Shown here: one piece after another, positions 743 to 20,106 of the stretch
How the letters are laid out: each line of letters starts with the position of its first letter
Position numbering within the stretch: the stretch's first letter is position 1
Made by a program: the position numbers and the translations under genes
The notes under the pieces: generated by a model
What the model was told of the DNA's origin: nothing
What the model saw: only the letters and a program-made list of their open reading frames with translations
Database searches by the model: none
Origin: Burkholderiales bacterium
GTDB lineage: Bacteria > Pseudomonadota > Gammaproteobacteria > Burkholderiales > Burkholderiaceae_C
Direction: 5' to 3'
NCBI GenBank assembly: GCA_006227785.1
Contig: SBFU01000506.1
Location: 1-20,106, forward strand
DNA: 20,106 bases

Positions 743-797
743 GCGGACGCGCAGCACCCACCGGCCGGCCGTGTCCGGTCGGCGACGGGCCCGGATG

Positions 798-827
798 ATT
801 TATGCCAAGCAATCGCTTGCTATAAAT
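798..827. promoter_or_regulatory. 30-bp interrupted palindrome, probable TetR operator
   Basis: The sequence has the form ATTTAT-N2-CAAGC-N4-GCTTG-N2-ATAAAT, with 12 of 15 base pairs symmetrical about 812.5. It is an AT-rich island in GC-rich DNA, 25 bp before the start of a TetR-family gene. Size, symmetry and placement fit a TetR dimer site. Its right arm overlaps the predicted -10, so binding would block transcription of the regulator's own operon. No second copy was noticed in the other intergenic gaps. The assignment to this regulator is inferred. Confidence 0.7.
818..827 (+). promoter_or_regulatory. Extended -10 promoter of the nine-gene operon
   Basis: TG-C-TATAAA at 818-826 matches an extended -10 element (TGnTATAAT), which can work without a good -35 box. 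No convincing -35 is seen at the expected spacing (the hexamer at 798-803 is ATTTAT). Transcription would start near 833-836, leaving about 20 nt before the ATG at 853. The element lies inside the right half of the palindrome at 798-827. Confidence 0.55.
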
Positions 828-852
828 CTCGGGGCCTGCTAATTTCGGGGTC

Positions 853-1533
853 ATGCCAGCGGCGACCCCCACTTCAGATCCTCCCGAATCCGTCCCCCGC
901 TCCCGGGGGCGTCCCCGCAAGACGGCCCATGAGCGCGACGACGGCAACCGACGACAGGAGTTGCTGCGGGTGGCAGCGCGGCTGTTCCGCAGCCAGGGCT
1001 TCGACGCCACCAGCACGCGAGACATTGCCGCAGCGGCCGGCATGCGTTCAGGCTCGCCGTTCTACCACTTTGAAAGCAAGGAAGCCCTGCTGACGGCGGT
1101 GATGCAGGAGGGCATGGAGCGCGCCTTGCGCCGGCAGGCCGATGCGATGGCGCAGGCCGGGCTAGATGCCCAGCGCCGCCACCAGACGCTCACCGCACGC
1201 GAATGCCTTCGGGTGCTGGTGCGCAACCACTTTGACGTGCTGGTGGGCCCGGAGAGCGACTTCATCCCGGTGATGTTGTACGAATGGCGCTCGCTCTCGC
1301 CCAGCGAGCGCTCGGCGGTGAAGGCACTCAAGGACCGCTACGAAACGGTTTGGGTGCCGGTGCTGGACGCGCTGCACGCCAGCGGTGAACTCAGCGGCGA
1401 TGCACGGCTGGCCCGGTTGCTGATCTTTGGTGCCCTCAACTGGACCGCGCAGTGGTACCAGCCGAATGAGCGCGCCTCGCTGGACGCATTGACGGATGCG
1501 GCGCTGCAGCTGTTTCTGAAGGACAAGCCATGA
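853..1533 (+). CDS. TetR/AcrR family transcriptional regulator
   Basis: This 226-residue protein is the first gene of the operon. The N-terminal helix-turn-helix lies at about residues 33-80. It contains the typical ARLF-x-x-x-GF-x-x-T-S/T-x-x-DIA-x-x-AG stretch and an F-YHF-x-SKEAL end, which mark TetR DNA-binding domains. The ligand-binding C-terminal half (about 90-226) is all-helical and unspecific in sequence. Before the HTH there is a basic, proline-rich arm with SRGRPRK (about 17-23), an AT-hook-like core. The start has only a weak ribosome-binding site (GGGG, 847-850), but no better in-frame start precedes the HTH. The stop codon overlaps the next gene's ATG by 4 nt. It probably represses its own operon through the palindrome at 798-827, with an acyl-CoA as inducer; both points are inferred from context. 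Confidence 0.92.
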   Translation: MPAATPTSDPPESVPRSRGRPRKTAHERDDGNRRQELLRVAARLFRSQGFDATSTRDIAAAAGMRSGSPFYHFESKEALLTAVMQEGMERALRRQADAMAQAGLDAQRRHQTLTARECLRVLVRNHFDVLVGPESDFIPVMLYEWRSLSPSERSAVKALKDRYETVWVPVLDALHASGELSGDARLARLLIFGALNWTAQWYQPNERASLDALTDAALQLFLKDKP

Positions 1534-2417
1534 GTGAGCACTACCGTTCGGTTTTTCGACCGGGCCTGTTCGAAGGCCGCACCGTCATGGTGACGGGGGG
1601 TGGCTCGGGCATCGGCCGATGCACCGCCCATGAACTGGCCAGCCTGGGAGCCCATGTGGTTCTGGTGGGCCGCAACGAAGACAAGCTGCGACAGGTCTGC
1701 GCCGAGATTGCCGAGGACGGTGGCCAGGCCAGCAGCCAGGTTTGTGACATCCGCCAGGAGGCCGCGGTGCAGGCCATGGTGGCGCAGGTCGTGCAGGCCT
1801 GGGGCCGCATCGACGGCCTGGTCAACAACGCGGGCGGACAGTACATCTCGCCGCTGGAGAAGATCAGTGCCAAGGGCTGGCAGGCGGTGATCGACACCAA
1901 CCTGACTGGTGGCTTCCTGGTGGCGCGCGAGTGCCACCTGCAGTCGATGCAGGCCAACGGTGGCAGCATCGTCAATATCGTGGCCGACATGTGGGGCTCG
2001 ATGCCGGGCATGGGCCACAGCGGCGCAGCCCGCATGGGCATGGTCGGTTTCACCGAAACCGCCGCTGTCGAGTGGGCACGCTGCGGCGTGCGGGTGAATG
2101 CGGTGGCGCCAGGCTACATCGCGTCCAGCGGTATGGACCACTACCCGCCCGAGGCGGGTTCCATGCTGCGCGAGATGCGCGAAACCGTGCCCGCCGGGCG
2201 TTTCGGCAACGAGGCCGAAACCTCGGCCGCCATCGTGTTCCTGCTGTCGCCAGCGGCCAGCTTCATCAGCGGCAGCGTGTTGCGGGTCGATGGTGCTCGA
2301 CCCCAGGTGCGCATGGGCTGGGGCCAGGTGGCCGCGACGGACGATGTTCAGCAACGCGACGCGGTCCGGCCGTTTGACGGCTTCCACCGCTACGTCGTCC
2401 CCAAGGTGTTCCAGTGA
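1530..2417 (+). CDS. SDR family oxidoreductase, citronellol-dehydrogenase/enoyl-CoA-reductase-like
   Basis: A 295-residue Rossmann-fold short-chain dehydrogenase/reductase. The cofactor loop TGGGSGIG lies at about 22-29, the NNAGG motif at 99-103 and the LLSPAASFISG segment near 238-248. Where classical SDRs carry YxxxK it has H163-SGAA-R168, and the usual upstream Ser is absent (NIVAD). From memory, mammalian peroxisomal trans-2-enoyl-CoA reductase has a near-identical HSGAAR stretch. SDRs of acyclic-terpene (atu) clusters, often named citronellol/citronellal dehydrogenase, share the C-terminal FDGFHR-x-VVPKV ending. A redox step on an acyl-CoA or on the alcohol/aldehyde precursor is therefore likely, but the substrate is unknown. 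It overlaps the regulator gene by ATGA and touches the carboxyltransferase start. Confidence 0.85.
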   Translation: MSEHYRSVFRPGLFEGRTVMVTGGGSGIGRCTAHELASLGAHVVLVGRNEDKLRQVCAEIAEDGGQASSQVCDIRQEAAVQAMVAQVVQAWGRIDGLVNNAGGQYISPLEKISAKGWQAVIDTNLTGGFLVARECHLQSMQANGGSIVNIVADMWGSMPGMGHSGAARMGMVGFTETAAVEWARCGVRVNAVAPGYIASSGMDHYPPEAGSMLREMRETVPAGRFGNEAETSAAIVFLLSPAASFISGSVLRVDGARPQVRMGWGQVAATDDVQQRDAVRPFDGFHRYVVPKVFQ

Positions 2418-4024
2418 TGCGCTTCGAATCGCGATTTGACCCCCACAGCCCCGTGGTCCTGCAGCGGCGCGAGGCCATGCTGGCCCGCATCGGCGAGTTG
2501 CGCGCGCTGGAGGACCGCGCGGCGCAGGCATCGGCCCGCTCGAAGCCGGTGTTCGACAAGCGGGGACAGCTGTTGCCGCGCGAACGGGTGGGCCTGTTGC
2601 TGGACCCGGGCGCCCCCTACCTGCCGCTGTGCACGTTGGCCGGGTATCTCCAGGACCACAAGGACCCCGCCAGGTCGGTGCCCGGCGGTGGCATGCTGGC
2701 CGGCATCGGCTTTGTCGGTGGCGTGCGCTGCATGGTGGTGGCCAGCGATTCGGGCATCGACGCGGGCGCCATCCAGGCGCGCGGGCTGGAGAAGATCCTG
2801 CGGGTGCAGGAACTGGCGCTGGAGAACCGTCTGCCCTTTGTGCACCTGGTCGAAAGCGCGGGCGCCAACCTGATGAAATACCAGGTGGAGGGCTTTGTGC
2901 TGGGCGGCGGCCTGTTCCGCAACCTGGCGCGCTTGTCCGCCGCCGGTCTGCCGGTGATCACCGTGCAGCACGGCTCGGGCACCGCTGGCGGCGCCTACAT
3001 GCCAGGGCTGTCGGATATCGTGGTCATGGTGCGGGGCCGCTCGCGCGCCTTTCTGGCCGGACCACCCCTGCTCAAGGCGGCCACCGGCGAGATTGCCACC
3101 GAAGAGGAGCTGGGCGGTGCCGAGATGCACAGCGCGGTCTCCGGCCTGGGAGAGCACCTGGCCGAAGACGATCGGCACGCCCTGGGCATCGCGCGCGAGA
3201 TCGTGTCCCGCACCGGCTGGCAGACACCGGCCCGGCCCGAGGCGACCGTCCCCCGATACGGGGCAGACGACCTCCTGGGGCTGATGCCGGAGCACCATCG
3301 TGAACCGGTGGACATGCGCGAGATCATGCTGCGCATCACCGACGGCTCCGCCCTGCTTGAATTCAAGCCCATGTACGGTCCTGGCACGGTGTGTGTGCAG
3401 GCGCACATCGGTGGACACGCGGTGGGCCTGATCAGCAACAACGGACCGATCGACGTCGCAGGCGCGAACAAGGCCACCCACTTCATCCAGTGGATGTGCC
3501 AGTTGGGCCACCCCATCATCTACCTGCAGAACACGACCGGCTACATGGTCGGCAAAGACAGCGAGCAGGGCGGCATGATCAAGCACGGCAGCAAGATGAT
3601 CCAGGCGGTCACCAATGCCACCGTGCCGCAGATCACCATCCAGTGCGGAGCCTCGTTCGGGGCTGGCAACTACGGCATGTGCGGGCGCGGCTACGCACCG
3701 CGCTTCCTGTTCAGCTGGCCGAACGCGCGCACCGCAGTGATGGGTGGCGAGCAGGCTGCCACCACCATGCGCATCGTGGCCGAAGCCGGTCTGGCCCGCA
3801 AGGGCATCACGCCCGACCCGGCGCAGATGCAGGCCCAGTACGACGCCATCGTGCAGCTGTTTGAAAGCCAGGCCGATGCTTTCTACACCAGTGGCCTGGT
3901 GCTGGACGACGGAGTGATCGACCCGCGCGACACGCGGGCGGTGCTGGCTTTCTGCCTCGACACCGTGGCCGAGGCGGCCCAGCGCGATCCGCGCCGCATG
4001 CAGTTCGCTGTGGCGCGCATGTGA
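2417..4024 (+). CDS. Acyl-CoA carboxylase, carboxyltransferase (beta) subunit
   Basis: A 535-residue biotin-dependent carboxyltransferase with two crotonase-fold halves. The first oxyanion loop is GTAGGA (about 188-193), and FLAGPPLLKAATGE and LGGAEMH follow. The second half has QNTTGYMVG (371-379) and GASFGAGNYGM (411-421), then FSWPNAR and VMGGEQAA. It should transfer CO2 from biotin on the 7182-9116 product to an acyl-CoA. Overall architecture resembles methylcrotonyl-CoA carboxylase beta, but the FPDR-x-x-FGR stretch I expect of methylcrotonyl and geranyl enzymes is absent. Residues 148-170 read instead AGANLMKYQ then GFVLGGG. It is closer in feel to actinobacterial AccD2 proteins (from memory). 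The ATG at 2417 shares its first base with the SDR stop and has AAGGTG at 2403-2408; a GTG at 2414 is the alternative start. Confidence 0.93.
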   Translation: MRFESRFDPHSPVVLQRREAMLARIGELRALEDRAAQASARSKPVFDKRGQLLPRERVGLLLDPGAPYLPLCTLAGYLQDHKDPARSVPGGGMLAGIGFVGGVRCMVVASDSGIDAGAIQARGLEKILRVQELALENRLPFVHLVESAGANLMKYQVEGFVLGGGLFRNLARLSAAGLPVITVQHGSGTAGGAYMPGLSDIVVMVRGRSRAFLAGPPLLKAATGEIATEEELGGAEMHSAVSGLGEHLAEDDRHALGIAREIVSRTGWQTPARPEATVPRYGADDLLGLMPEHHREPVDMREIMLRITDGSALLEFKPMYGPGTVCVQAHIGGHAVGLISNNGPIDVAGANKATHFIQWMCQLGHPIIYLQNTTGYMVGKDSEQGGMIKHGSKMIQAVTNATVPQITIQCGASFGAGNYGMCGRGYAPRFLFSWPNARTAVMGGEQAATTMRIVAEAGLARKGITPDPAQMQAQYDAIVQLFESQADAFYTSGLVLDDGVIDPRDTRAVLAFCLDTVAEAAQRDPRRMQFAVARM

Positions 4025-4027
4025 GGC

Positions 4028-5170
4028 ATGCCCGTGGCCGTCACTTTGCAGTACCTCATTCCGGCCGAAGCGCCGCGCCTGCTGGGCGAGCAGCTGGCCA
4101 AAGCCGGCTCAGGAATACGGCCACAGGCTTTCGCCCGTTCGGTTGGCGCGGACTTCGACACGCTCGGCCTGATGGACCGCGGCCGGCGTCTGGCCGAGGT
4201 GCTGGCGCAGCACCTGCCCGGCCACTTCCCCGAGGCGGCTGCACTGCTGGTGGCCTCCATGGGTCGGCCGCTGGGGCTGGACGCCAAGGGGGAACCGGTG
4301 GCCAGCGGCGACGTACCCAGCAGCTTCTTCTACCTGCCGCACAGCCTGTTCATTGGGACGCAGGGCCTGGACCACCTGGACGAGGCGGTGGCGGCCCAGC
4401 ACGCCCTGACCCAGCGATTCACCGCCGAGTTCAGCCTGCGCCCCTTTCTGCAGCACCACAGCGAGGCCACGCTGGTCCACCTGAAGGGCTGGAGCACGGA
4501 CGCCAGCGCCCACGTGCGCCGCGCGGTCAGTGAATCGACCCGTCCGCGACTGCCCTGGGCACCCCGGCTGCGGGTGTTTGACGACGACCCCGAACGGGTG
4601 CTGGCGCTGTTGACCGGGCTGCGGGACGACCCGTCGTCCTATGTGCGCCGTTCGGTGGCCAACCACCTGAACGACCTGGCGACGCGTCACCCCGACCGGC
4701 TGCTGTCGCTGGCCGGCGAGTGGCTGGGCGGCCGGTCTGTGCCGCGCACCCGTGAGGCCTTGGTCCGTCATGCCCTGCGCACGGTGATCAAGCGCGGTGA
4801 CCCGAGGGCGCTGGCGCTGTTCGGCCATGGCGAGCCGTCGGTGATCCGGGTGACGCAGGCGCAGGTCAAGCCGGCGCGGCCACGGGTAGGCGAACGGGTC
4901 GAACTGAGCTGTGAACTGCACAACCCGACCGGCCAGACCGCCTCGGTACTGGCGGACTGGCGGGTGCACTACGTCAAGGCCGACGGAAGCCGCAGCCCCA
5001 AGGTGTTCAAGGGCCAGGAGCTGACGCTGGCGCCCGGCGGGCGTGTCGACTTGAGAAAAACATTGTCTTTGCGCCAGATGACGACACGCACCCATCACCC
5101 AGGCCGTCACCTGGTCGAGCTGGCCCTCAATGGTCAGGCCTACGCCATCGGCCAATTCGATCTTCATTGA
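4028..5170 (+). CDS. AlkC-like DNA alkylation repair glycosylase with C-terminal Ig-like domain
   Basis: A 380-residue protein that I place in the DNA_alkylation (AlkC/AlkD) superfamily of HEAT-like-repeat glycosylases, which remove alkylated bases such as 3-methyladenine without flipping them out. Helical repeats span about residues 15-268. The most telling parts are KGWSTDASAHVRRAVSES (about 153-170) followed by TRPRLPW, and DDPSSYVRRSVANHLNDL (200-217). Residues 271-378 look like an all-beta Ig-like domain (VELSCELHNPTGQ, then LAPGGRVDLRKTLSL). Such a tail has been described for some AlkC proteins (from memory). It starts 3 nt after the carboxyltransferase stop and ends 29 nt before the acyl-CoA dehydrogenase ATG, so it is co-transcribed with catabolic genes. 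Nothing in the sequence explains that placement. The family call is firm; activity is not proven. Confidence 0.82.
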   Translation: MPVAVTLQYLIPAEAPRLLGEQLAKAGSGIRPQAFARSVGADFDTLGLMDRGRRLAEVLAQHLPGHFPEAAALLVASMGRPLGLDAKGEPVASGDVPSSFFYLPHSLFIGTQGLDHLDEAVAAQHALTQRFTAEFSLRPFLQHHSEATLVHLKGWSTDASAHVRRAVSESTRPRLPWAPRLRVFDDDPERVLALLTGLRDDPSSYVRRSVANHLNDLATRHPDRLLSLAGEWLGGRSVPRTREALVRHALRTVIKRGDPRALALFGHGEPSVIRVTQAQVKPARPRVGERVELSCELHNPTGQTASVLADWRVHYVKADGSRSPKVFKGQELTLAPGGRVDLRKTLSLRQMTTRTHHPGRHLVELALNGQAYAIGQFDLH

Positions 5171-5187
5171 ACCTCCCACGACACCCC

Positions 5188-5193
5188 AGGAGA
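5188..5193 (+). promoter_or_regulatory. Ribosome-binding site that fixes the ATG at 5200
   Basis: AGGAGA lies 6 nt before the ATG at 5200. It decides against the TTG at 5167, which would overlap the AlkC-like stop and add 11 residues (NLPRHPRRHA-like) not seen in acyl-CoA dehydrogenases. Confidence 0.75.
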
Positions 5194-5199
5194 CACGCC

Positions 5200-6372
5200 A
5201 TGCAATTCACGCACGAACACCGCGAGATCCAGAAGACGCTCAAGCGCTTCATCGACGAGCAGATCAACCCGCACGTGGACGAATGGGAGGCGGCCGAGAT
5301 GTTCCCGGCACACGAGGTGTTCAAAGGCCTCGGCCAGCTGGGCCTGCTGGGCCTGACCAAGCCCGAGGCCTATGGCGGCATGGGGCTGGACTATTCCTAC
5401 AGCGTGGCCATGGCCGAGACGCTGGGACACATCCACTGCGGTGGTGTGCCGATGGCCATTGGTGTGCAGACCGACATGGCCACGCCGGCCCTGGCCCGCT
5501 TCGGCAGCGATGAGCTGCGCGCGCAGTTCCTGGCGCCGGCCATCGCCGGGGACATGGTCGGCTGCATCGGGGTCAGCGAACCCGGGGCGGGCAGCGACGT
5601 GGCCGGCATCAAGACCTACGCCCGCAAGGACGGCGACGACTACGTCATCAGCGGCCAGAAGATGTGGATCACCAACAGCCTGCAGGCCGACTGGATGTGC
5701 ATGCTGGTGAACACCGGCGAGGGACCGGCGCACAAGAACAAGAGCCTGGTGATGGTGCCGCTGCGCGAGAACGGCAAGACGGTCAAGGGTTTCGAGGTGG
5801 GCCAGAAGATCAAGAAAATCGGCATGAACAGCAGCGACACCGGACTGCTGTTCTTCGACGAGGTACGCGTGCCCCAGCGCTACCGCATCGGTCAGGAGGG
5901 TGCGGGCTTCATCTACCAGATGCAGCAGTTCCAGGAAGAGCGCCTGTGGGCGGCGGCCAGCTGCATCCAGAGTCTGTCCAACTGCATCGAGTGGACGGTG
6001 GCGTATGCGCAGGAGCGCAAGCTGTTCGGGGCATCGCTGGCCGACCAGCAGTGGGTGCAGTTCAAGCTGGCCGAACTCAAGACCGAGGTTGAAAGCCTGC
6101 GTGCGCTGACCTACCAGTCGTGCGAGCACTACGTGGCCGGCGAAGACGTGACCGAATGGGCCACCATGGCCAAGCTCAAGGCCGGCCGCCTGAACCGGCT
6201 GGTGCCCGATACCTGTCTGCAGTTCTGGGGTGGCATGGGCTTCACCTGGGACAACAAGGTCTCGCGCATGTACCGCGACGGGCGGCTGGCGTCCATCGGC
6301 GGTGGTGCCGATGAGGTGATGCTGGGCATCCTCACCAAGATCATGGGTATCGCCAAGAAGCCGGTGCATTGA
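5200..6372 (+). CDS. Acyl-CoA dehydrogenase (first of two)
   Basis: A 390-residue FAD-dependent acyl-CoA dehydrogenase that should introduce an alpha-beta double bond into an acyl-CoA, passing electrons to electron-transfer flavoprotein. The three usual domains are visible: an N-terminal helical domain, a middle beta domain with CIGVSEPGAGSDVAG (about 122-136) and WITNS (156-160), and a C-terminal helical domain with QERKLFG and QFWGGMGFTWD. The catalytic base is not in the common MCAD position, where the sequence reads SIGGGADEV. E247 in QEERLW aligns instead with the base of isovaleryl-CoA and long-chain dehydrogenases. That suggests a bulky or branched substrate (inference). It is read from AGGAGA at 5188 and followed after 12 nt by the hydratase gene. 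Confidence 0.94.
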   Translation: MQFTHEHREIQKTLKRFIDEQINPHVDEWEAAEMFPAHEVFKGLGQLGLLGLTKPEAYGGMGLDYSYSVAMAETLGHIHCGGVPMAIGVQTDMATPALARFGSDELRAQFLAPAIAGDMVGCIGVSEPGAGSDVAGIKTYARKDGDDYVISGQKMWITNSLQADWMCMLVNTGEGPAHKNKSLVMVPLRENGKTVKGFEVGQKIKKIGMNSSDTGLLFFDEVRVPQRYRIGQEGAGFIYQMQQFQEERLWAAASCIQSLSNCIEWTVAYAQERKLFGASLADQQWVQFKLAELKTEVESLRALTYQSCEHYVAGEDVTEWATMAKLKAGRLNRLVPDTCLQFWGGMGFTWDNKVSRMYRDGRLASIGGGADEVMLGILTKIMGIAKKPVH

Positions 6373-6384
6373 CAGGAGGCAGAC

Positions 6385-7185
6385 ATGAGCAACTTTCTCG
6401 TGGTGCGGCAGGGTGATACAGAGCGCTGGACGCTCAACGACCCGGCCACGCGCAATGCCTTGTCCGACAGCATGGTGGTCGACCTGTTCGAGGCCTGTTT
6501 GCGCGCCAAGGCGGACACGTCGCTGCGCATCGTGGTGCTGACCGGTGCCGCCGGTGCCTTTTGCGCCGGTGGCAGCCTGGGCCACTTCGCCAGTGCCATC
6601 GGCAAGCCGCTGGCGCCGGGAGAAAGCGACCCCTTGGTCACGGCCAATCGGGCGTTTGGTGACGTGCTGCACGCGCTGTGCGAGCTGCCCCAGCTGCTGG
6701 TCTGCGCGGTGGATGGCGCCGCCATGGGCGGGGGCTTTGGGCTGGTGTGTTGCGCGGACCACGTGATCGCCACTCGCCGCTCGGTGTTTGCCACCCCGGA
6801 GGTCACACTGGGCCTGCCGCCGGCGCAGATTGCGCCTTTTGTCTGGGCGCGTCTGGGCGACGCGGTGGCCCGTCAGTGCCTGCTGCAGGGGCGCAGCCTG
6901 CACGCCGAGGCGGCGCTGCAGGCCGGGCTGGTCGACGACCTCGTGGCCGATGGCGAACTGGAGGACGCCCTGACCGACAGCCTGCAGCGGCTGCGGCGCG
7001 CCGCGCCGGGTGCCGTCACGGCGACCAAGCAGTTGCTGGGGCGCCTGCGCTCGAAGATGCCGGATCTGCGCGACGAGGCGGCGCTGGCATTTGCCGGCGC
7101 GTTGCGTGGACAGGAGGCGGCCGAGGGGCTGGCCGCATTCGCCGGCCGAAGACCGGCGCGCTGGGCGGATGGGGAACAACGATGA
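6385..7185 (+). CDS. Enoyl-CoA hydratase/isomerase family protein, glutaconyl-CoA-hydratase-like
   Basis: A 266-residue crotonase-fold enzyme. The first oxyanion segment is AFCAGGSLGHF (about 58-68), and the second is VDGAAMGGGFGLVCCADHV (109-127). Of the two classical hydratase glutamates, the first is replaced by Gly (G119), while the second is kept as E139 in ATPEVTLGL. The sequence then reads PPAQIAPFV (145-153), which I associate, from memory, with isohexenylglutaconyl-CoA hydratase (AtuE) and relatives acting after geranyl-CoA carboxylation. Hydration of a 3-methylglutaconyl-type product of the neighbouring carboxylase is the likely job. AGGAGG at 6374-6379 is a near-ideal ribosome-binding site. 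The stop overlaps the next ATG by 4 nt. Confidence 0.9.
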   Translation: MSNFLVVRQGDTERWTLNDPATRNALSDSMVVDLFEACLRAKADTSLRIVVLTGAAGAFCAGGSLGHFASAIGKPLAPGESDPLVTANRAFGDVLHALCELPQLLVCAVDGAAMGGGFGLVCCADHVIATRRSVFATPEVTLGLPPAQIAPFVWARLGDAVARQCLLQGRSLHAEAALQAGLVDDLVADGELEDALTDSLQRLRRAAPGAVTATKQLLGRLRSKMPDLRDEAALAFAGALRGQEAAEGLAAFAGRRPARWADGEQR

Positions 7186-9116
7186 AGCGACTGCTGATCG
7201 CCAACCGGGGTGAGATCGCCAGGCGCGTGATCCGCACCGCCCGGCGCATGGGCATCGCCACGGTGGCGGTCTGTTCCGACCCGGACCGGCAGGCGCTGCA
7301 TGTGCGAGAGGCCGACATCGTGGTGCCGCTGGGTGGTCTCAGCTCGGCCGAGAGTTACCTGTGCATCGACAAGCTGATCGATGCGGCGCGAACCAGTGGC
7401 GCCGATGCGGTGCACCCCGGCTACGGCTTCCTCAGCGAGAACGCCGACTTCGCCCAGGCGGTGATCGACGCGGGACGGGTCTGGGTCGGTCCGCCGCCTG
7501 CAGCCATTCGGGCCCTGGGCAGCAAGTCGGCGGCCAAGGCCGTGGCCTTGCAGCAGGGGGTGCCGGTGCTGCCGGGTTACTTTGGCGATGACCAGCGCGA
7601 CGCCACCCTGTTGGCCGAGGCGGATCGCATCGGCTATCCGGTCATGGTCAAGGCGGTGGCCGGTGGCGGTGGTCGCGGCATGCGCCTGGTGCACAGCGCC
7701 GACCAGCTCCCGGCCGCGCTGCTCAGCGCCCGGTCCGAGGCCCTTGCCAGTTTCGGCTGTGCCGATCTGCTGATCGAACGGGCCTTGTTGCGACCACGCC
7801 ATGTCGAGGTCCAGGTGTTTGCCGATGCCCACGGGCATTGCATCCACCTGGGTGAGCGTGACTGCTCGGTGCAGCGGCGTCACCAGAAAATCATCGAGGA
7901 AGCCCCCAGTCCGGCCGTCTCGCCCGAACTGCGCGCCGAACTCGGCCGCTGTGCCATTGCCCTGGCGCAGGGCGCAGGCTACGTCGGCGCCGGCACGGTG
8001 GAGTTCTTGCTGGACGGAGATGCGTTCTACCTTATGGAAATGAACACGCGGCTGCAGGTTGAGCATCCGGTGACCGAAATGTTGACGGGACTGGATCTGG
8101 TGGAGTGGCAGATCCGGGTGGCACGAGGTGAAGCCTTGCCGCTGAGGCAGGAAGAGGTGCAGCTCCAGGGTCACGCCATCGAAGTCCGGTTGTGCGCCGA
8201 AGACGAGCTCTTCACCCCGCACACGGGCAAGGTGCAACTGTTCAATGAGCCGCCCCTGTCGGAGGGCTTGCGCTTTGACCACGCGCTGGAGAGCGGCACT
8301 GTGGTCTCGCCCTACTACGACGCCATGCTGGGCAAGCTGATCGCGCATGCGCCGACCCGTGACCAGGCGCTGAACCGGCTGGCCCGGGCGTTGGACGACA
8401 CCGTGCTGCTGGGTTTGCCGAGCAACCGCGCCTTTCTGGCGGCCTGCCTGCGTCACCCGGTGTTCCGTGCGGGCGAAGCAGGCATCCCTTTTCTGGCCGA
8501 GCATGGCGATGCCTTGCGTGCGGTGCTGGTGCCATCGACCCAGACACGGATCGCGGCGGTGGTGGCCGCCTGCTACGCGGGCCGAACCCTGACCATGAAC
8601 CTGTCCTCGCCTTTTCCCCGTGCCCAGCGCTGGCTGGTCGGCGAGCACGCGCTGGACCTTGTGCTGCACGAGCACGGCGGTGGCCGGGTGTCGGTGCAGG
8701 CAGGCGATGCCCGATACGAGGTGGTACTCACCGCGGACTCGCTGACACTGGATGGCGTGTGTCGAACCTGCAGCGTGGTGTCGGTCGACGGTGCCAACCC
8801 GCCGGCCGTGGTGGTGCGCTGGGGCACGGAGGTGGTTGAGCTGGTCGATCTGAGTCTGCTGGCCCCCGAAGGCGCCGGTGGCGGTGCCAGCGCCAACGAG
8901 TTGCGGGCGCCCTTCAACGGCCGGCTGGTGGCACTGGCCGCCCAGGCGGGCGACCGGGTGGCCCGCGGCCAGACCTTGATGACCATCGAGAGCATGAAGA
9001 TTGAACACCAGATCACCGCCCCCCGCGACGCCGCCGTGGCCGCGGTACCCGTGGCGCCCGGTCAGCAGCTGACACCCGGCCAGGTGCTGCTGGTGTTCGA
9101 GCCGGAGGCCACATGA
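7182..9116 (+). CDS. Acyl-CoA carboxylase alpha subunit: biotin carboxylase plus biotin carrier domain
   Basis: A 644-residue biotin-dependent carboxylase alpha chain. It begins with the canonical LLIANRGEIA-x-R at residues 4-14, then HPGYGFLSEN, the ATP-grasp loop KAVAGGGGRGM, GERDCSVQRRHQK and EMNTRLQVEHPVTE. A less conserved linking region follows (about 450-570). The C-terminal biotin carrier domain ends with ESMKIEH, in which K606 is the predicted biotinylation site. It uses ATP and bicarbonate to carboxylate its own biotin, then delivers CO2 to the 2417-4024 subunit. The ATG at 7182 overlaps the hydratase stop (ATGA) and coincides exactly with the family's N-terminal motif. The frame stays open far upstream into the hydratase gene, but that part is not family-like. 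All ATP- and biotin-site motifs are intact. Confidence 0.95.
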   Translation: MKRLLIANRGEIARRVIRTARRMGIATVAVCSDPDRQALHVREADIVVPLGGLSSAESYLCIDKLIDAARTSGADAVHPGYGFLSENADFAQAVIDAGRVWVGPPPAAIRALGSKSAAKAVALQQGVPVLPGYFGDDQRDATLLAEADRIGYPVMVKAVAGGGGRGMRLVHSADQLPAALLSARSEALASFGCADLLIERALLRPRHVEVQVFADAHGHCIHLGERDCSVQRRHQKIIEEAPSPAVSPELRAELGRCAIALAQGAGYVGAGTVEFLLDGDAFYLMEMNTRLQVEHPVTEMLTGLDLVEWQIRVARGEALPLRQEEVQLQGHAIEVRLCAEDELFTPHTGKVQLFNEPPLSEGLRFDHALESGTVVSPYYDAMLGKLIAHAPTRDQALNRLARALDDTVLLGLPSNRAFLAACLRHPVFRAGEAGIPFLAEHGDALRAVLVPSTQTRIAAVVAACYAGRTLTMNLSSPFPRAQRWLVGEHALDLVLHEHGGGRVSVQAGDARYEVVLTADSLTLDGVCRTCSVVSVDGANPPAVVVRWGTEVVELVDLSLLAPEGAGGGASANELRAPFNGRLVALAAQAGDRVARGQTLMTIESMKIEHQITAPRDAAVAAVPVAPGQQLTPGQVLLVFEPEAT

Positions 9117-10279
9117 ACCCTGCCGACCACCCCCATCTGGATGAAGGCGAGCTGCAGGCCTTGCTTGACACAGTACGCCGATTCGCGGTCGAGCGCGTGC
9201 GGCCGAACCTCGATGACTGGGAAGCCCAGGGACAGTTTCCCCGCGAGTTGTACCCGCAGGCCGCCGAACTCGGCCTGCTGGGTCTGGGCTATCCGGAACA
9301 CCTGGGCGGCACGCCCGCCAGCTGGCGGGTGCGCAACGCGTTCTCGCAGACACTGGCGCGCCATGGCACCAGCGGTGGACTGATGGCCAGTCTGCTTTCA
9401 CTCAACATCGGCTTGCCGCCGGTGCTGGCGCACGGCACGCCCGAATTGCAGGGCGAGGTGGTGCCGCCGGTTTTGCGTGGCGAGAAGATCGCAGCGCTTG
9501 GCATCACCGAACCGGGTGGCGGCTCCGATGTGGCGGCCCTGCGCACCACCGCGCGCCGCGACGGCGACGACTACGTCATCGACGGCGAGAAGGTGTTCAT
9601 CACCTCCGGCGTGCGCGCCGACTGGGTGACGCTGGCGGTTCGCACCGATGCCCACAACAAGGGATCGGGAGGCATCAGCATGATCTTGGTGCCCATGGAC
9701 CGGCCCGGCATCTCGCGCACCGCCTTGCAGAAAATGGGCTGGCACTGCTCGGACACCGCGCATCTTCGTTTCGACGCTGTGCGGGTGCCCGTGCGCTACC
9801 GCCTGGGAGAAGAGGGCGCCGGCTTTCGCATGATCATGACCAACTTCAACGGTGAGCGGCTGGCCATGTCGGCGATGGCACTGGGCTTTGCCCAGGCCTG
9901 TTACGACGAGGCGCTGGACTGGGCCCGCCAGCGGCAGACCTTCGGCGCCGCGCTGATCGAGCGGCAAGTCATCCGGCACAAGCTGATGGACATGCGCATG
10001 CGCATCGAAAGCACGCAGGCCTGGGTCGATGCGGTCACGACGCGCGCCGACGCCGGAGACACCGCTGCCGACTGGGTGGCACACGTTTGCCTGCTGAAGA
10101 ACCACGCCACCCAGACCATGCAGTTCTGCGCCGACACCGCGGTGCAGATTCTGGGTGGCATGGGCTACATGCGGGGCACCGCCAGCGAGCGCATCTACCG
10201 GGAAGTGAAGGTGATGATGATCGGCGGAGGCGCCGAGGAAATCATGAAAGAACTGGCCGCGCGACAATCCGGACTATGA
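9113..10279 (+). CDS. Acyl-CoA dehydrogenase (second of two)
   Basis: A 388-residue flavin-dependent acyl-CoA dehydrogenase, only distantly similar to the first one in the operon. Visible are LGITEPGGGSDVAAL (about 129-143), VFITSG (161-166), RQRQTFGAAL and QILGGMGYMRG. As in the first enzyme, the usual C-terminal catalytic Glu is missing (MIGGGAEEI). E248 in NGERLAM takes the isovaleryl-CoA-type position. Two dehydrogenases in one operon imply two oxidation rounds or two substrates of different length. GGAGG at 9104-9108 serves the ATG at 9113, which overlaps the biotin carboxylase stop by 4 nt. From memory, Mycobacterium tuberculosis fadE12 and fadE13 flank accA2/accD2/echA7 in a comparable gene set. 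Confidence 0.93.
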   Translation: MNPADHPHLDEGELQALLDTVRRFAVERVRPNLDDWEAQGQFPRELYPQAAELGLLGLGYPEHLGGTPASWRVRNAFSQTLARHGTSGGLMASLLSLNIGLPPVLAHGTPELQGEVVPPVLRGEKIAALGITEPGGGSDVAALRTTARRDGDDYVIDGEKVFITSGVRADWVTLAVRTDAHNKGSGGISMILVPMDRPGISRTALQKMGWHCSDTAHLRFDAVRVPVRYRLGEEGAGFRMIMTNFNGERLAMSAMALGFAQACYDEALDWARQRQTFGAALIERQVIRHKLMDMRMRIESTQAWVDAVTTRADAGDTAADWVAHVCLLKNHATQTMQFCADTAVQILGGMGYMRGTASERIYREVKVMMIGGGAEEIMKELAARQSGL

Positions 10280-10758
10280 CCCGACATACACCACCCCCGG
10301 AGGCCTTTGAGCCTGCCTTCATCAACGGCCTCAAGCTGATCTTCGAAGAGAAGATCGTCTTCAACCAGGTCCTGGGTCTGAAGATCACCGACCTGCGCCC
10401 GGATCGGGCCATCGCACGCATCGACATGCGCCGTGAGCTGATTGGCCACTATGCCCACAACCGGGTGCATGGCGGCGTCATCAGTGCCGGACTGGATGCC
10501 ATGGGTGGGTTGGCGGTGATGGCCGCCATTGGCGCCCGGCACATGGATGAGGCCCCCGAGCAGCGCCTGCTGCGCTTTGCCAAGCTGGGCACCATCGACC
10601 TGCGCATCGACTACCTGCGCCCGGGCATTGCCGAGTGGTTCGAACTCAGTGCCGAGGTGCTGCGCCTGGGCTCCCGCGTGGCGTCGACGCGGATGGAATT
10701 CCGAGGACCGGACGGCAAGCTGTTTTCGGCTGGTTCAGGCGCTTACATCGTGTCTTGA
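10276..10758 (+). CDS. PaaI/YiiD-like hotdog-fold acyl-CoA thioesterase
   Basis: A 160-residue hotdog protein and the last gene of the operon. The hallmark is NRVHGGVISAGLDAMGGLA (about 62-80), close to the N-x-HGG...D pattern of PaaI-type thioesterases, with D74 the likely catalytic acid. The second strand region reads IDLRIDYLRPG (104-114). It should hydrolyse an acyl-CoA to free acid and CoA, either as a proof-reading step that frees trapped CoA or as a product-releasing step. The ATG overlaps the preceding stop by 4 nt; in-frame sequence further upstream lies inside the dehydrogenase gene and is not family-like. Downstream are 84 bases before a convergent kinase gene, without a convincing terminator. 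Confidence 0.88.
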   Translation: MTRHTPPPEAFEPAFINGLKLIFEEKIVFNQVLGLKITDLRPDRAIARIDMRRELIGHYAHNRVHGGVISAGLDAMGGLAVMAAIGARHMDEAPEQRLLRFAKLGTIDLRIDYLRPGIAEWFELSAEVLRLGSRVASTRMEFRGPDGKLFSAGSGAYIVS

Positions 10759-10842: not shown

Positions 10843-12843
10843 TCAGGAAGACTCGAGCAGCTGGGCAACGGTCGAGCAGAAGTCACGCACGGAGGTTTCC
10901 TTGTAGAGGACGGCTCGAACCCCGAGAGCCTGGGCCTTCGAGTGCAGTTCCTCGGTGACGTAGCCAGAAACGATCACCACGGCCAGTTCGGGCCGAATCG
11001 TCTTGAGGGCGCTGGTGACGTCCAGTCCGGACAAGCCCGGCATGTTGAAATCGGTGACCACCATGTCGATTTCGCCGGCGGTCATTGCTATCTCGTCCAG
11101 TGCGGCTTGCGGCTCTGTGAAGCCACGTACGTCGAATCCCGCCCGTTTGAGCAAGAGGCAGACCAGCGTGACCAGCGACTCATCGTCGTCGATGTACACC
11201 AGGCGACGTCCCTGACCGACCACTTGGGTGCCGCTTGCGGGCGGTTCCTCAAGCGGTTGTGCCACTGGCTCTTGCTGAACCAGTGGCAGGTAGATGGTGA
11301 ATTCGGCACCCAGGCCAGGGGTGCCGTCGGCCACGATCATGCCGCCGTGGTCGCGGACGATGCCGTGGATGAGGGCCAGTCCCATGCCGGTGTTCCGGCC
11401 CAGCTCGCGCGTGGTGAAGAATGGATCGAACAGGCGCTCCCTGACCGCGTTGTCAAACCCGCAGCCGTCGTCGCGGAAGCGGATGCGTGCGTAGGCGCCA
11501 GCGCGTGTGCTGCCGAGTTGCTCTGCCTGCGAGAATTCGAGTTCAACCCGGTCCACCAGAACATCGATGGTTCCCTGTTTCCCGCTCATGGCCTGTTCCG
11601 AGTTGCTTCCCAGGTTGATCAGGACCTGGAGCAGTCCGCCCGAGTTCAGCCTGGCATAAAGGGGCTCTTCGGGCAGCTCCGAATGTATGCGGATGGAGCC
11701 TGGCAGCATGGACCGCAGCGTGGTCAAACCCCGTTCGATGACGGGACGCAACGACAGGACTTCCAGGGTCTGGTGTCGCTTTTGGCTGAAGATCATGAGC
11801 TGTTCGACCAGGCGCCTGGCCCGCTCTGCTGCCTTGTCGATTTCCTCCAGCATCGGCCTTGATGCGTGGCCTTCATCGGTGTGCCCGCGAGCCAGCACCA
11901 CATTGCCGACGATGGTGGCCACGATGTTGTTGAAATCGTGGGCCAGACCCCCGGCCAGCGTACCAAGCGCATCGAGCCGCTGCAACTCTCGGACTCGCTG
12001 TTCCAACGCGTGCCGCTCGGTCAGATCGCGCATGAGGGTCACCGCTTCCATTTCACCGCTGGCTGCCCGCCACAGCGATGAGGAGAGTTCACATTCGAAT
12101 CGCGTGCCGTCCTTGCGGATCATGGTGAGCACACCACGCGCCGTGCTGTTTCGCCGGCGTTCGGCCAGTCGCTCGGGCAATCGTGGATCGGTCAGGTCGG
12201 TGACGTCCTGACGCCGCATGTTGCGCAACTCTTCAGCGCTGGCACCGAGCATTTCGCAGGCTGCGGGGTTGGCTTCCAGGATCGGTCCGTTTTCTGTTCC
12301 GTAGAGGATCCCGTCAAGGCTGTGCTGGAAGATCAACTGGTAACGCTGGGCCTGGGCCTGGACCAGGGCCTGGGCTTCAAAATCGTCGGCGAGACGTTGA
12401 GCCAGGATGGCCATCGTGGGCACAGGGGTTCGGTCCACGGCCAGGGGCTCGAAGGACAGCCTCAGTCTCAGCGCGCCGGCTTGCGGTGTCGGTATCTCGA
12501 CCCGGCACACTTGCCGGCTCATCGATCCGACCGCCAAGTCAAACGCCTGACTCGACCAGAAGCCCGCCTTGCCGAGCACCTCGTGCAATCGGCGACCGAC
12601 CAGATCAACCCCCGGACTGCCCAACAGTTCGGCAAAACCCGTGCCAGTCCAGAGAATCGTTCCATCCTTGCCCGCCATCGCGGTGGCGGTCGATTCGATG
12701 GGTTCGGGCAGCTGCCTGTTCACGATGAATGCAGGGATTGAAGCGTGGTCCGTCCGTGCATCATGGTCCCAACGCACTGACCGACAGAAGTTTTGTGCGC
12801 GCTGTCGTTCCGCCCGAGGTGCAACCTCAGGCACCGAACTCAA
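10843..12843 (-). CDS. Hybrid sensor histidine kinase with two PAS domains and C-terminal receiver
   Basis: A 666-residue two-component hybrid with no membrane segment, so probably cytoplasmic. PAS-like domains lie at about 50-150 and 165-285. The phosphoacceptor helix has H302 in GLAHDFNNI. The ATPase domain has the N-box (LINLGSN, near 408-414), DDGCGFD (458-464) and FDPFFTT followed by GMGLA (487-490). A receiver domain (about 546-664) has the acid pocket DDD 552-554, the phosphoacceptor D598 in VTDFNMPG and K648. No DNA-binding output domain is attached, so a partner is needed. The start is uncertain: no ATG precedes the first PAS domain. TTG at 12843, behind a weak CAGGTGG, gives the longest form, and GTG codons at residues 23 and 41 are alternatives. 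The signal sensed is unknown. Confidence 0.9.
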   Translation of the reverse strand: MSSVPEVAPRAERQRAQNFCRSVRWDHDARTDHASIPAFIVNRQLPEPIESTATAMAGKDGTILWTGTGFAELLGSPGVDLVGRRLHEVLGKAGFWSSQAFDLAVGSMSRQVCRVEIPTPQAGALRLRLSFEPLAVDRTPVPTMAILAQRLADDFEAQALVQAQAQRYQLIFQHSLDGILYGTENGPILEANPAACEMLGASAEELRNMRRQDVTDLTDPRLPERLAERRRNSTARGVLTMIRKDGTRFECELSSSLWRAASGEMEAVTLMRDLTERHALEQRVRELQRLDALGTLAGGLAHDFNNIVATIVGNVVLARGHTDEGHASRPMLEEIDKAAERARRLVEQLMIFSQKRHQTLEVLSLRPVIERGLTTLRSMLPGSIRIHSELPEEPLYARLNSGGLLQVLINLGSNSEQAMSGKQGTIDVLVDRVELEFSQAEQLGSTRAGAYARIRFRDDGCGFDNAVRERLFDPFFTTRELGRNTGMGLALIHGIVRDHGGMIVADGTPGLGAEFTIYLPLVQQEPVAQPLEEPPASGTQVVGQGRRLVYIDDDESLVTLVCLLLKRAGFDVRGFTEPQAALDEIAMTAGEIDMVVTDFNMPGLSGLDVTSALKTIRPELAVVIVSGYVTEELHSKAQALGVRAVLYKETSVRDFCSTVAQLLESS

Positions 12844-14201: not shown

Positions 14202-15368
14202 TCAGTTGGTCTTGAAGTACTCCGACACCACCTTCCAGCGGCCATCCTCGATGCGGGAGAGCCGGGACGAGTTGCTGCCCAGGCGCTTCTGGGGACCGAA
14301 GGTCATCTCGGCGCTGCCGAAGATGTCCGGCGGAATCACCATGGTGTCCATGGCCTTGATGAAGCTGTCGGTGGTCAGGTTCTGACCAGCCTTGCTGGCT
14401 GCACGGATGAAAGCGTCGACCAGGCTGTAGCCATAGACCGAGAACACGGTGGGGTCTTCGTTGAACTTGGTCTTGTACTTGGTGGCCCAGAAGCGGATGG
14501 GTTGCGAAGTGTCGTCCAGATAGGGGTTCTGCACCGTCATGGTGGCGTAGAGGCCGTTCATGGCCGGACCGCCCAGCTTGTGGATCAGGTCGGTGTAGGA
14601 AGCGCTGGACCCGAGGAAGGTCGGATTGAAGCCCAGGCGCCGGGCCGTCGCGATGCCGCCGATGGTTTCCCGGATGATGGTGCCCAGCACGACGAAGTCG
14701 CACTGCGCCGAAGCCAGGCGCTGCATCTGCGACGAGAAGTCGGTGGCGCCACGCTTGAAGCTGGTGCGCTCTGCCAGCGCCATGCCCATGCCCTTGAGGC
14801 CTTCTTCGGCGCCACGCAACACCTCCAGGCCGAACTCATCGTCCTGGTACATGGCGCACACCTTCTTGGCGCTCTTTTCCTTGACCAGCAGCGGCACAGC
14901 CACCCGCATCTGGTCGTAGTAGGTGGCGGCAAACGAGTACTTGAGCTTGTGGAAGGGCTCATACATCTCGCGGGCAGCGGTCACCGGGAAGAAGTTGATC
15001 ACGTTGCGCTGGAACTGCACCGGCATGGCCGCCATGTTCTGTGCCGTGCCGATGTGACCGACCATGGCAAAAATCTTGTCCTGGTTGACCAGCTTCTGGG
15101 CCGCCAGCACGGCGCGGCGTGGCTCATAGCCCGAGTCTTCCACCACCAGACGGATCTTGCGGCCGTTGACACCGCCCTGCTCGTTGGCTTCGTCCACACG
15201 CAGCATCATGCCGAAGCGGACCTGCTTGCCAAAACCCGCGATCGGGCCCGACAGATCCTGGATCGACCCCAGGACGATTTCGTCCTTGGACACACCCTGT
15301 GACTGGGCCAGGGCGGTTCCGCTGGCCAGCACGAGGCTGGCGGCGATCAACGTGAGTCTTCGATTCAT
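14202..15368 (-). CDS. LivK-type ABC transporter periplasmic substrate-binding protein
   Basis: A 388-residue type I periplasmic binding protein (Peripla_BP_6/Leu-Ile-Val-binding family). Residues 1-21 are a Sec signal peptide ending ALA, followed by the mature start QSQGVSKDEIVLGS. Typical elements are LGSIQDLSGPIAGFG (about 33-47), DEANEQGGVNGR-x-I and LVVEDSGYEP, with a late SVYGYSLVDAFIRA stretch. It should capture the ligand for the LivHMFG permease encoded upstream in the same operon. The family also binds aromatic and other carboxylic acids, so branched-chain amino acids are only one option. A strong AAGGAGA (15376-15382) precedes the ATG by 7 nt, allowing high expression as expected for a binding protein. 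It is the last gene before the terminator at 14137-14169. Confidence 0.92.
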   Translation of the reverse strand: MNRRLTLIAASLVLASGTALAQSQGVSKDEIVLGSIQDLSGPIAGFGKQVRFGMMLRVDEANEQGGVNGRKIRLVVEDSGYEPRRAVLAAQKLVNQDKIFAMVGHIGTAQNMAAMPVQFQRNVINFFPVTAAREMYEPFHKLKYSFAATYYDQMRVAVPLLVKEKSAKKVCAMYQDDEFGLEVLRGAEEGLKGMGMALAERTSFKRGATDFSSQMQRLASAQCDFVVLGTIIRETIGGIATARRLGFNPTFLGSSASYTDLIHKLGGPAMNGLYATMTVQNPYLDDTSQPIRFWATKYKTKFNEDPTVFSVYGYSLVDAFIRAASKAGQNLTTDSFIKAMDTMVIPPDIFGSAEMTFGPQKRLGSNSSRLSRIEDGRWKVVSEYFKTN

Positions 15369-17263: not shown

Positions 17264-18052
17264 TCATCTCCAGTTCTTCTTTTTCTTCCAGCGGCGGTCG
17301 GCGCGCACGCCCTCTTCCTTCATGCCCAGGTAGAACTCCTTGATGTCCTCCTTCTCTCGCAGGCGGGCACAGGTGTCTTCCATGACAATGCGGCCGTTTT
17401 CCAGCACATAGCCATAGTCGGATGCGTTGAGTGCCATGTTGGCGTTCTGCTCGACCAGCAGGATGGTGGTGCCGCGTTCGCGGTTGATACGCACCACAAT
17501 CTCGAAAATCTCCTTGGTCAGCTTGGGGCTGAGGCCCAGGCTGGGTTCGTCCAGCAGGATCAGGTCGGGGTTGGCCATGAGCGCTCGGCTGATCGCCAGC
17601 ATCTGCTGCTGACCACCCGAAAGCAGGCCGGCGTCCTGCGTGGCCCGCTCGCGCAGGATGGGGAAGTAGTTGAACACCAGTTCCATGTCGCGCGCCACGC
17701 CGTCGCGGTCGTTGCGCGTGTAGGCCCCCATGAGCAGGTTGTCGCGTACCGACAGCAGCGGGAACACTTCACGACCCTCGGGCACGTGCATCAGGCCCTG
17801 TTGAACGATGTGGGCGGGGTCCTGGGCCGTGATGTTCTCGCCCTTGAATTCCACCGAGCCTTTGCGGGGGTCGATGATGCCGCTGATGGTCTTGAGGATG
17901 GTGGTCTTGCCGGCGCCGTTCGAACCCAGCACGGTGGCGATCTCGCCGCGACGCACCTGCAGGCTCACCCCGCGGATGGCCTTGATCGGACCGTAGGCGC
18001 TTTCGACGTTGAGCAGCTTGAGGACTGCGTTGTCGGTCAAGGGGGCGGTCAT
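17264..18052 (-). CDS. livF: LivF-type ABC transporter ATP-binding protein
   Basis: A 262-residue ABC ATPase of the branched-chain amino acid/HAAT type. Walker A GSNGAGKT lies at 43-50, the Q-loop region reads MHVPEGREVFP, the signature LSGGQQQ is at 144-150 and Walker B with the catalytic Glu is LILLDEP (165-171). It couples ATP hydrolysis to uptake through LivH/LivM on the cytoplasmic side. The C-terminus carries an unusual basic tail (about 246-262: KEEG, then DRRWKKKKNWR). I have seen such tails in LivF proteins encoded beside an acyl-CoA synthetase, but their role is unknown. The ATG at 18052 overlaps the livG stop by 4 nt; the frame is open further upstream inside livG, but that part is not family-like. 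Confidence 0.93.
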   Translation of the reverse strand: MTAPLTDNAVLKLLNVESAYGPIKAIRGVSLQVRRGEIATVLGSNGAGKTTILKTISGIIDPRKGSVEFKGENITAQDPAHIVQQGLMHVPEGREVFPLLSVRDNLLMGAYTRNDRDGVARDMELVFNYFPILRERATQDAGLLSGGQQQMLAISRALMANPDLILLDEPSLGLSPKLTKEIFEIVVRINRERGTTILLVEQNANMALNASDYGYVLENGRIVMEDTCARLREKEDIKEFYLGMKEEGVRADRRWKKKKNWR

Positions 18053-19976: not shown

Positions 19977-19992
19977 GGGTACGGTTCCGGTG

Positions 19993-20106
19993 TCAGACCT
20001 TCTTGCGCAGCTGCTCGCCGAACAGCCCGTTCGGCTTGAGCACCAGCATGATCAGCACGACGATGTAGGGAGCGATGTCCTTGAATCCCTCGGGCAGGTA
20101 GAAGCC
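19993..20106 (-). CDS. livH: LivH-type ABC permease, C-terminal 37 residues only
   Basis: An open frame enters from the right edge and ends at TGA (19993-19995). The 37 visible residues include FKDIAPYIVVLIMLVLKPNGLFGE and a lysine-rich end. This is the usual last membrane segment and KPNGLFG ending of LivH permeases. Its place immediately before livM supports the call. The promoter and the start of the operon lie outside the window. Confidence 0.85.
   Translation of the reverse strand, partial: GFYLPEGFKDIAPYIVVLIMLVLKPNGLFGEQLRKKV

Follow-up and report, generated by a model that had tools for sequence, protein, structure and literature searches.

Which compound is degraded by the products of the carboxylase operon at positions 853-10758 of the 20,106-nucleotide stretch of DNA analysed here (hereafter the window), and does this operon encode a new carboxylation route? 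As contig C121, the window belongs to a metagenome-assembled genome (MAG; 67.6% complete, 506 contigs) with Hydrogenophaga, Limnohabitans and other Comamonadaceae as named relatives. The operon consists of co-directional, tightly packed genes in the order TetR, short-chain dehydrogenase (SDR), carboxyltransferase (CT), AlkC, acyl-CoA dehydrogenase 1 (ACAD1), enoyl-CoA hydratase (ECH), biotin carboxylase (BC), ACAD2 and thioesterase. The original prediction, made from the DNA alone, held that its substrate matched neither leucine nor terpene catabolism and that it could represent an uncharacterised carboxylation route. Our analysis indicates that the operon very probably encodes the central part of a pathway of the Atu type (acyclic terpene utilization) in Hydrogenophaga-like Comamonadaceae, within a proposed isoprenoid-acid regulon under the operon's own TetR. 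It is therefore not an unknown route but a variant of the known Atu pathway, which both the gene set and the CT fit.

As judged from its sequence, the window CT is of the geranyl-CoA carboxylase (GCC, AtuC) type and not a methylcrotonyl-CoA carboxylase (MCC). Its best match in the PDB is the beta subunit of Pseudomonas aeruginosa GCC (PaGCC; 5ikl, 585 bits, 53% identity to PaGCC-beta), compared with 454 bits for P. aeruginosa MCC (PaMCC; 45% identity to PaMCC-beta). According to the mutagenesis described by Jurado et al. (PMC4673880), swaps between GCC Gly162 and MCC Phe191 shift the preference between geranyl- and methylcrotonyl-CoA, and the same source proposes an annotation rule opposing the Gly of GCC to the Phe and three-residue insertion of MCC. 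In our alignment, a Gly of the window CT aligns with MCC Phe191, no three-residue insertion precedes it, and both the Phe and the PDREHFGRIF insertion motif are lacking. The Gly without insertion was found in 126 of the 159 aligned sequences (the window CT being counted twice, as WINDOW and L185) and the Phe with the three-residue insertion in 32, while L208 has the Gly with one inserted residue. For the CT phylogeny, reconstructed under LG+G4 with 1000 ultrafast bootstraps (UFBoot), close orthologues were thinned to leave 94 of the 159 sequences, to which an outgroup was added (95 in total). The tree separates a GCC-type clade (UFBoot 100), excluding all 32 MCC-type sequences, from an MCC-type clade (UFBoot 96). 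The window CT groups with 5ikl, the AtuC of P. aeruginosa (UFBoot 96), to the exclusion of a sister clade found in other family genomes, and lies in a separate subclade, not nested among the Pseudomonas sequences, with one extra residue relative to PaGCC and FRNLARL replacing FANQARI next to the specificity glycine.

The sister clade (UFBoot 100; L108-L115, L124-L127, L135, L136 and other family genomes) is made of GCC-type CT loci, many of which display the order SDR-CT-ACAD-ECH-BC. Propionyl-CoA carboxylase (PCC) was rejected as an assignment for the window CT, most chains of that name scoring much lower, at no more than about 217 bits; 9tps, labelled PCC, matches the CT at 434 bits, but its motif is MCC-type. 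The earlier statement that the CT differs from both LiuB and AtuC thus holds for identity (45% and 53%, respectively) and fails for type. The tree, which had been proposed as a check, places the beta subunit with AtuC/GCC-beta 5ikl, as a separate subclade, and so goes largely against the supposed mismatch with terpene catabolism; an isoprenoid acid as the likely substrate class, also suggested at that time, agrees with the GCC-type CT and with the gene order.

In Pseudomonas, atuABCDEFGH is described as being under the control of AtuR and as encoding the dehydrogenases AtuB and AtuG, the carboxylase AtuC/F, the acyl-CoA dehydrogenase AtuD and the hydratase AtuE (PMC4847356). The SDR-CT-ACAD-ECH-BC succession of the window corresponds to the atuBCDEF order, interrupted by AlkC. 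As a reference locus with canonical order we used L206 (CT 70% identical to 5ikl), arranged as TetR / AtuA-SDR-CT-ACAD1-ECH-BC-SDR, whose SDR, ACAD1, ECH and BC are compared with those of the window in Table 1. Of the 80 named loci, 54 had sufficient flanking DNA for neighbourhoods to be counted, each ACAD match being counted only once: TetR, ACAD1 and BC adjoin the CT in 54/54 loci each, SDR in 53/54, ACAD2 in 48/54, ECH in 45/54 and the thioesterase in 26/54. This recurrence across the scored loci shows that the grouping is not due to chance. A single tight operon holding SDR, CT, two ACADs, ECH, BC with its biotin carrier domain (BCCP) and thioesterase is likewise confirmed by gene calls, Pfam and ATGA overlaps, which are found at four junctions (TetR/SDR, ECH/BC, BC/ACAD2 and ACAD2/thioesterase). 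However, the start proposed earlier (2417) omits the SDR and TetR genes lying upstream, and the gene list missed the AlkC-type gene between CT and ACAD1.

Two observations concern these loci more generally. In Comamonas (L062, L070, L071, L072, L081), acyl-CoA ligase-like and SDR genes replace the thioesterase after the operon, which suggests a variant of the substrate or of the entry route. In addition, a record titled as an Akkermansia muciniphila MAG (L038) holds a Limnohabitans-like locus and is probably mislabelled or contaminated.

The absence of HMG-CoA lyase (liuE) and atuA had been taken as a sign of a different pathway. Indeed, neither HMG-CoA lyase nor AtuA is encoded in the window, but the claim does not extend to the MAG (HMG-CoA lyase on contig C249, AtuA on contig C304) or to the locus of its relatives. 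HMG-CoA lyase (NF004283, above cut-off) is present in all 12 genomes searched, this MAG included; the lyase role in Pseudomonas is credited to LiuE, encoded outside atu, in one review (PMC4097962) and alternatively to AtuA in PMC4847356. In the closest named relative (L009, genome G150; CT 94-95% identical to that of the window), the equivalent of the window end is followed by LivH and then, on the opposite strand, by AtuA, an AtuA_ferredoxin gene and an ECH. This layout is common to G114 and G152, and G045 follows it to the end of its contig; judged by it, the window breaks off within LivH, with AtuA about 1 kb further on. Since HMG-CoA lyase is encoded elsewhere in the genome and AtuA lies past the matching point in relatives, the two absences are best explained as edge effects.

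AtuA, detected as a PF07287 match, was found in 20/20 named operon genomes, hand-chosen from the 80 loci, and shares the contig of the CT in 14 of them, at 1.7 to 30 kb. We then considered a family sample of 150 genomes in bands of CT identity drawn from the matches listed, G037, G055 and G107 (weak partial matches) being excluded from the AtuA-positive set. AtuA is present in 23/27 genomes of the closest band (at least 73%), 19/20 at 55-68%, 5/19 in the sister band (50-55%) and 29/83 of the rest; that is, in 42/47 genomes with a CT of at least 55%, with five lacking it among the matches listed, versus 29/83 without a listed GCC-type CT (Fisher 6e-10, uncorrected for kinship). It lies at most 50 kb from the CT in 10/27 and 13/20 genomes of the first two bands (23/47 in total) and in 0/19 of the sister band. 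AtuA as a mere family-wide background can be rejected from these counts (sister band 5/19, none linked; rest 29/83). In G029 (L171), TetR-AtuA-ferredoxin domain-SDR-CT-ACAD1-ECH-BC-ACAD2 stand in one row. Two forms of AtuA are linked to window-type operons: a long canonical one (L170, L172, L137) and a short one accompanied by a separate AtuA_ferredoxin gene (Hydrogenophaga and Limnohabitans). The AtuA of L206 has a long reading frame.

The near-perfect inverted repeat in front of the TetR gene (Table 1) may link these dispersed genes to each other. Its CAAGC-N4-GCTTG palindrome recurs in close relatives upstream of TetR, in the divergent LivH/AtuA region (in the intergenic region of C304, G150 and G152) and at a beta-oxidation unit (ACAD and thiolase-FadB). 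The known AtuR operators are quoted in PMC9973270 as AGCAAGCGCTTGG and CCAAGCGCTTGCT, and the window palindrome is made of AtuR half-sites with a 4-base spacer; CAAGCGCTTG was found between AtuA and TetR in L206. Scanning 19 genomes for the exact pattern TTT-N5-AAGC-N4-GCTT-N5-AAA, with the reversed pattern as control, retrieved 17 sites in 12 genomes and none for the control. Twelve of these sites are upstream of the operon's TetR. The divergent region at LivH holds the other five, of which three face AtuA and two, in Acidovorax, an ECH-thioesterase pair. With one mismatch allowed, 46 sites were obtained against 7 control hits; by tally, 34 of the 46 belong to the three units: TetR (15), LivH (7) and the beta-oxidation unit (12). 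The latter bears the palindrome at one mismatch and not in the exact form, mostly between divergent genes; the site is upstream of the ACAD in G166, and in this MAG the ACAD side stands alone on its contig. A control with 20 scrambled palindromes gave one hit in the scan of loci; as it covered just 14 of the 38 loci scanned, we relied on the genome-wide reversed control. Furthermore, the beta-oxidation unit is joined to the operon in three Limnohabitans, where its ACAD directly precedes TetR, and adjoins LivK in two Acidovorax.

From family membership and the established Atu chemistry (as described in PMC4847356 and PMC4097962), we infer the following steps. An acyclic 3-methyl-branched isoprenoid acid would be taken up and activated by the Liv-type transporter and the AMP-forming ligase, and ACAD1, at the AtuD position, would form the 3-methyl-2-enoyl-CoA. 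The GCC-type carboxylase (CT and BC) would then carboxylate the 3-methyl group and the ECH, at the AtuE position, would hydrate the product. Acetate would be released by the AtuA-type lyase encoded past the window edge, or by LiuE, and the resulting 3-oxoacyl-CoA could be passed to the thiolase, FadB and ACADs of the third unit. The operon's TetR is predicted to bind the CAAGC-N4-GCTTG palindrome and thereby to repress all three units.

Several observations weigh against this reconstruction and must be considered. Regarding the regulon, 12 of the 46 one-mismatch sites lie outside the three units, 7/19 genomes are devoid of an exact site and the palindrome is confined to close relatives: it was not found within six mismatches in L101, L174, L098, L137 and L206, nor was its LivH/AtuA copy within two mismatches in L164, L167 and L175, although AtuA is linked there. 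The half-sites are moreover 4 bp apart in the window palindrome and contiguous (spacing 0) in the AtuR sites. Regarding AtuA, it is unlinked to the operon in 6/20 named genomes, and no PF07287 match was found in 4/27 closest-CT genomes, including the nearly complete G015, G072 and G054, which do have an HMG-CoA lyase; the idea that AtuA is strictly required is thus not supported. Nor is AtuA a specific marker, since it occurs in 29/83 genomes with no GCC-type CT listed. In the MAG itself, AtuA is on contig C304, which displays a similar LivH/AtuA layout; over the 345 bases that overlap the window end, however, C304 is just 79% identical, ruling it out as the direct continuation and indicating a related strain or a paralogue.

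Other explanations of the locus differ in how much of this evidence they accommodate. A diverged leucine/isovalerate operon (liu, MCC) would employ common chemistry, and the best PDB match of the BC subunit is PaMCC-alpha (574 bits, no GCC-alpha chain being among the 60 matches listed). Nevertheless, the CT lacks the Phe and the insertion and branches outside the MCC clade, and in G114 an MCC-type CT (L132) occupies a locus of its own, some 6 kb away from an HMG-CoA lyase. Signature, tree and a distinct liu-type locus thus argue against the leucine pathway and leave this origin highly improbable, in agreement with the original prediction on this point. The palindrome could instead be the site of a general fatty-acid regulator, the FadP-type TetR of Betaproteobacteria, making the operon a branch of general beta-oxidation. 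According to PMC5343134, fatty acid degradation in Comamonadaceae is predicted to be under FadP control, and the thiolase-FadB unit does bear the palindrome. However, only 1 to 5 palindrome sites per genome were found at one mismatch, compared with the 194 predicted FadP sites in 25 genomes given in PMC5343134; in addition, the TetR is the first gene of the operon itself, and a site with at most one mismatch lies upstream of it in 15/19 genomes. We consider this explanation unlikely.

A closer rival retains the gamma-carboxylation of the Atu-type reading and changes its substrate, which would lie outside the C10 monoterpenes: a longer isoprenoid (farnesoate, or chlorophyll-derived phytenate) or a different 3-methyl-branched acid. 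The window CT falls in a subclade separate from that of PaGCC (53% identity), the extra residue and the FRNLARL replacement stand beside the specificity glycine, the operon holds a second ACAD, and Hydrogenophaga and Limnohabitans present the split AtuA with its separate AtuA_ferredoxin gene. These two genera, which are freshwater groups, also make up many of the named loci. On the other hand, the window-type operons of L170, L172 and L137 have the long canonical AtuA linked to them, which points to the usual chemistry and perhaps to a similar substrate. We consider a substrate outside the C10 monoterpenes a serious option, though less likely than not.

The AlkC gene inside the operon constitutes a small puzzle, namely why a repair enzyme travels with terpene catabolism. 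The only strong PDB relatives of its product are the AlkC alkylpurine DNA glycosylases 5vhv/5vi0, with a near full-length match that includes the C-terminal part (residues 31-379 of 380 versus 29-359 of 5vhv), while Pfam DNA_alkylation falls just below its cut-off (20.4 vs 21); by homology, the protein is an AlkC-type alkylpurine DNA glycosylase. AlkC stands between CT and ACAD1 in 13 of the 74 named loci where both were seen, in several genera, and at the contig end in L008 and L032. A match was found in 37/150 sampled genomes and, among the CT matches listed, adjoins the CT in three, including this MAG. The operon copies group together weakly with L219 (UFBoot 68). Relative to L009, AlkC has a dN/dS of 0.18; this exceeds the values of the other eight operon genes (0.02-0.15) but is far below 1, indicating that the gene is kept and not decaying. 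AlkC might be co-expressed because an electrophilic intermediate (an enal or enoyl-CoA derivative) damages DNA, in a three-unit Comamonadaceae regulon adapted to longer isoprenoids, for instance phytenate or farnesoate. This idea is speculative and we think it probably wrong; if true, catabolism and repair would be switched on together. L219 itself is a TetR-AlkC-ACAD1-thioesterase unit with an exact operator-like site and no CT beside it.

Table 1. Position, strand and basis of annotation of the predicted operator, the operon genes and the Liv unit in the window.
Feature	Position	Strand	Basis
Near-perfect inverted repeat GATTTATGCCAAGC-AATC-GCTTGCTATAAATC, predicted operator	797-828		12/14 arm positions pair; upstream of TetR
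TetR-family regulator, AtuR-like by position	853-1533	+	Pfam TetR_N, TetR_C_24
SDR, AtuB position	1530-2417	+	Pfam; 55% to positional counterpart in L206
CT beta subunit, GCC/AtuC type	2414-4024	+	Pfam, PDB match, signature alignment, tree
AlkC-type alkylpurine DNA glycosylase (380 codons)	4028-5170	+	5vhv/5vi0, 208 bits
ACAD1, AtuD position	5200-6372	+	Pfam; 61% to ACAD of L206
ECH, AtuE position	6385-7185	+	Pfam; 40% to L206
BC + BCCP alpha subunit, AtuF position	7182-9116	+	Pfam, Biotin_lipoyl domain; 48% to L206
ACAD2	9113-10279	+	Pfam; best PDB 3oib, 318 bits
Hotdog thioesterase, NF008675 (PRK11688)	10276-10758	+	199 bits vs cut-off 107
LivK-like substrate-binding protein	14202-15368	-	Pfam Peripla_BP_6
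AMP-forming acyl-CoA ligase	15403-17259	-	Pfam AMP-binding
LivF-like ABC ATPase	17264-18040	-	Pfam ABC_tran
LivG-like ABC ATPase	18049-18870	-	Pfam; NCBIfam LivG under cut-off
LivM-like permease	18900-19976	-	Pfam BPD_transp_2

In the NCBIfam search of the nine operon proteins, the thioesterase alone exceeded a cut-off, and the rows shown hold no above-cut-off model for TetR, SDR, CT, the ACADs, ECH or BC. By synteny with L162, the bases past LivM are filled by the 3' end of LivH. A DUF5666 protein (23-742) is encoded immediately 5' of the TetR promoter region, and a PAS hybrid histidine kinase with a receiver domain (10843-12843, minus strand) separates the operon from the Liv unit. The LivH-LivM junction is present twice in the MAG, in copies that are 79% identical (L006/L007 on G000:C304 versus window 19765-20106); the MAG therefore either mixes strains or has a paralogous locus.

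Taken together, what appeared to be an unknown carboxylase operon becomes a nearly complete and testable catabolic system of Hydrogenophaga, Limnohabitans and relatives, comprising uptake, activation, carboxylation, cleavage and beta-oxidation. Atu loci can be distributed over units that have an operator-like site in common and are rejoined in other genera, so the absence of atuA from a single contig can mislead annotation. In the open-licence literature searched, we did not find acyclic terpene utilization tied to Burkholderiales or acyclic terpenes tied to Hydrogenophaga; for geranyl-CoA carboxylase in Comamonadaceae, a milkweed metagenome paper was the sole match.

Among the known systems, the accA2-accD2 genes of M. 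tuberculosis with fadE12, fadE13 and echA7 form a similar gene set, as the original prediction noted; AccD2 departs from the MCC signature and its role is presented as an open question in PMC4347857. The liuRABCDE leucine/isovalerate operon has the same ACAD, CT, ECH and BC chemistry, but the window CT differs in signature and clade, and the liu-type locus of G114 is separate. The atu genes of Thauera linaloolentis (Betaproteobacteria) provide a GCC-type carboxylase beyond Pseudomonas, the 54% similarity of its AtuC to that of PAO1 given in PMC4847356 being comparable to the 53% identity of the window CT; by the description in the same source, they are set apart by another arrangement that includes a linalool isomerase. 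With Pseudomonas atuRABCDEFGH, in contrast, the differences lie in composition and layout: the window operon adds an ACAD2 without counterpart in the described set, a thioesterase and the inserted AlkC; AtuA belongs to a separate unit and, in the nearest relatives, is split from its ferredoxin-like domain; the Liv transporter, ligase and beta-oxidation unit share the predicted operator; and the half-sites are spaced by 4 instead of 0. Nevertheless, the two systems have in common the SDR-CT-ACAD-ECH-BC order, the GCC-type CT signature, a TetR gene at the head, the CAAGC/GCTTG operator half-sites and, in many relatives of the window, a linked AtuA-type lyase.

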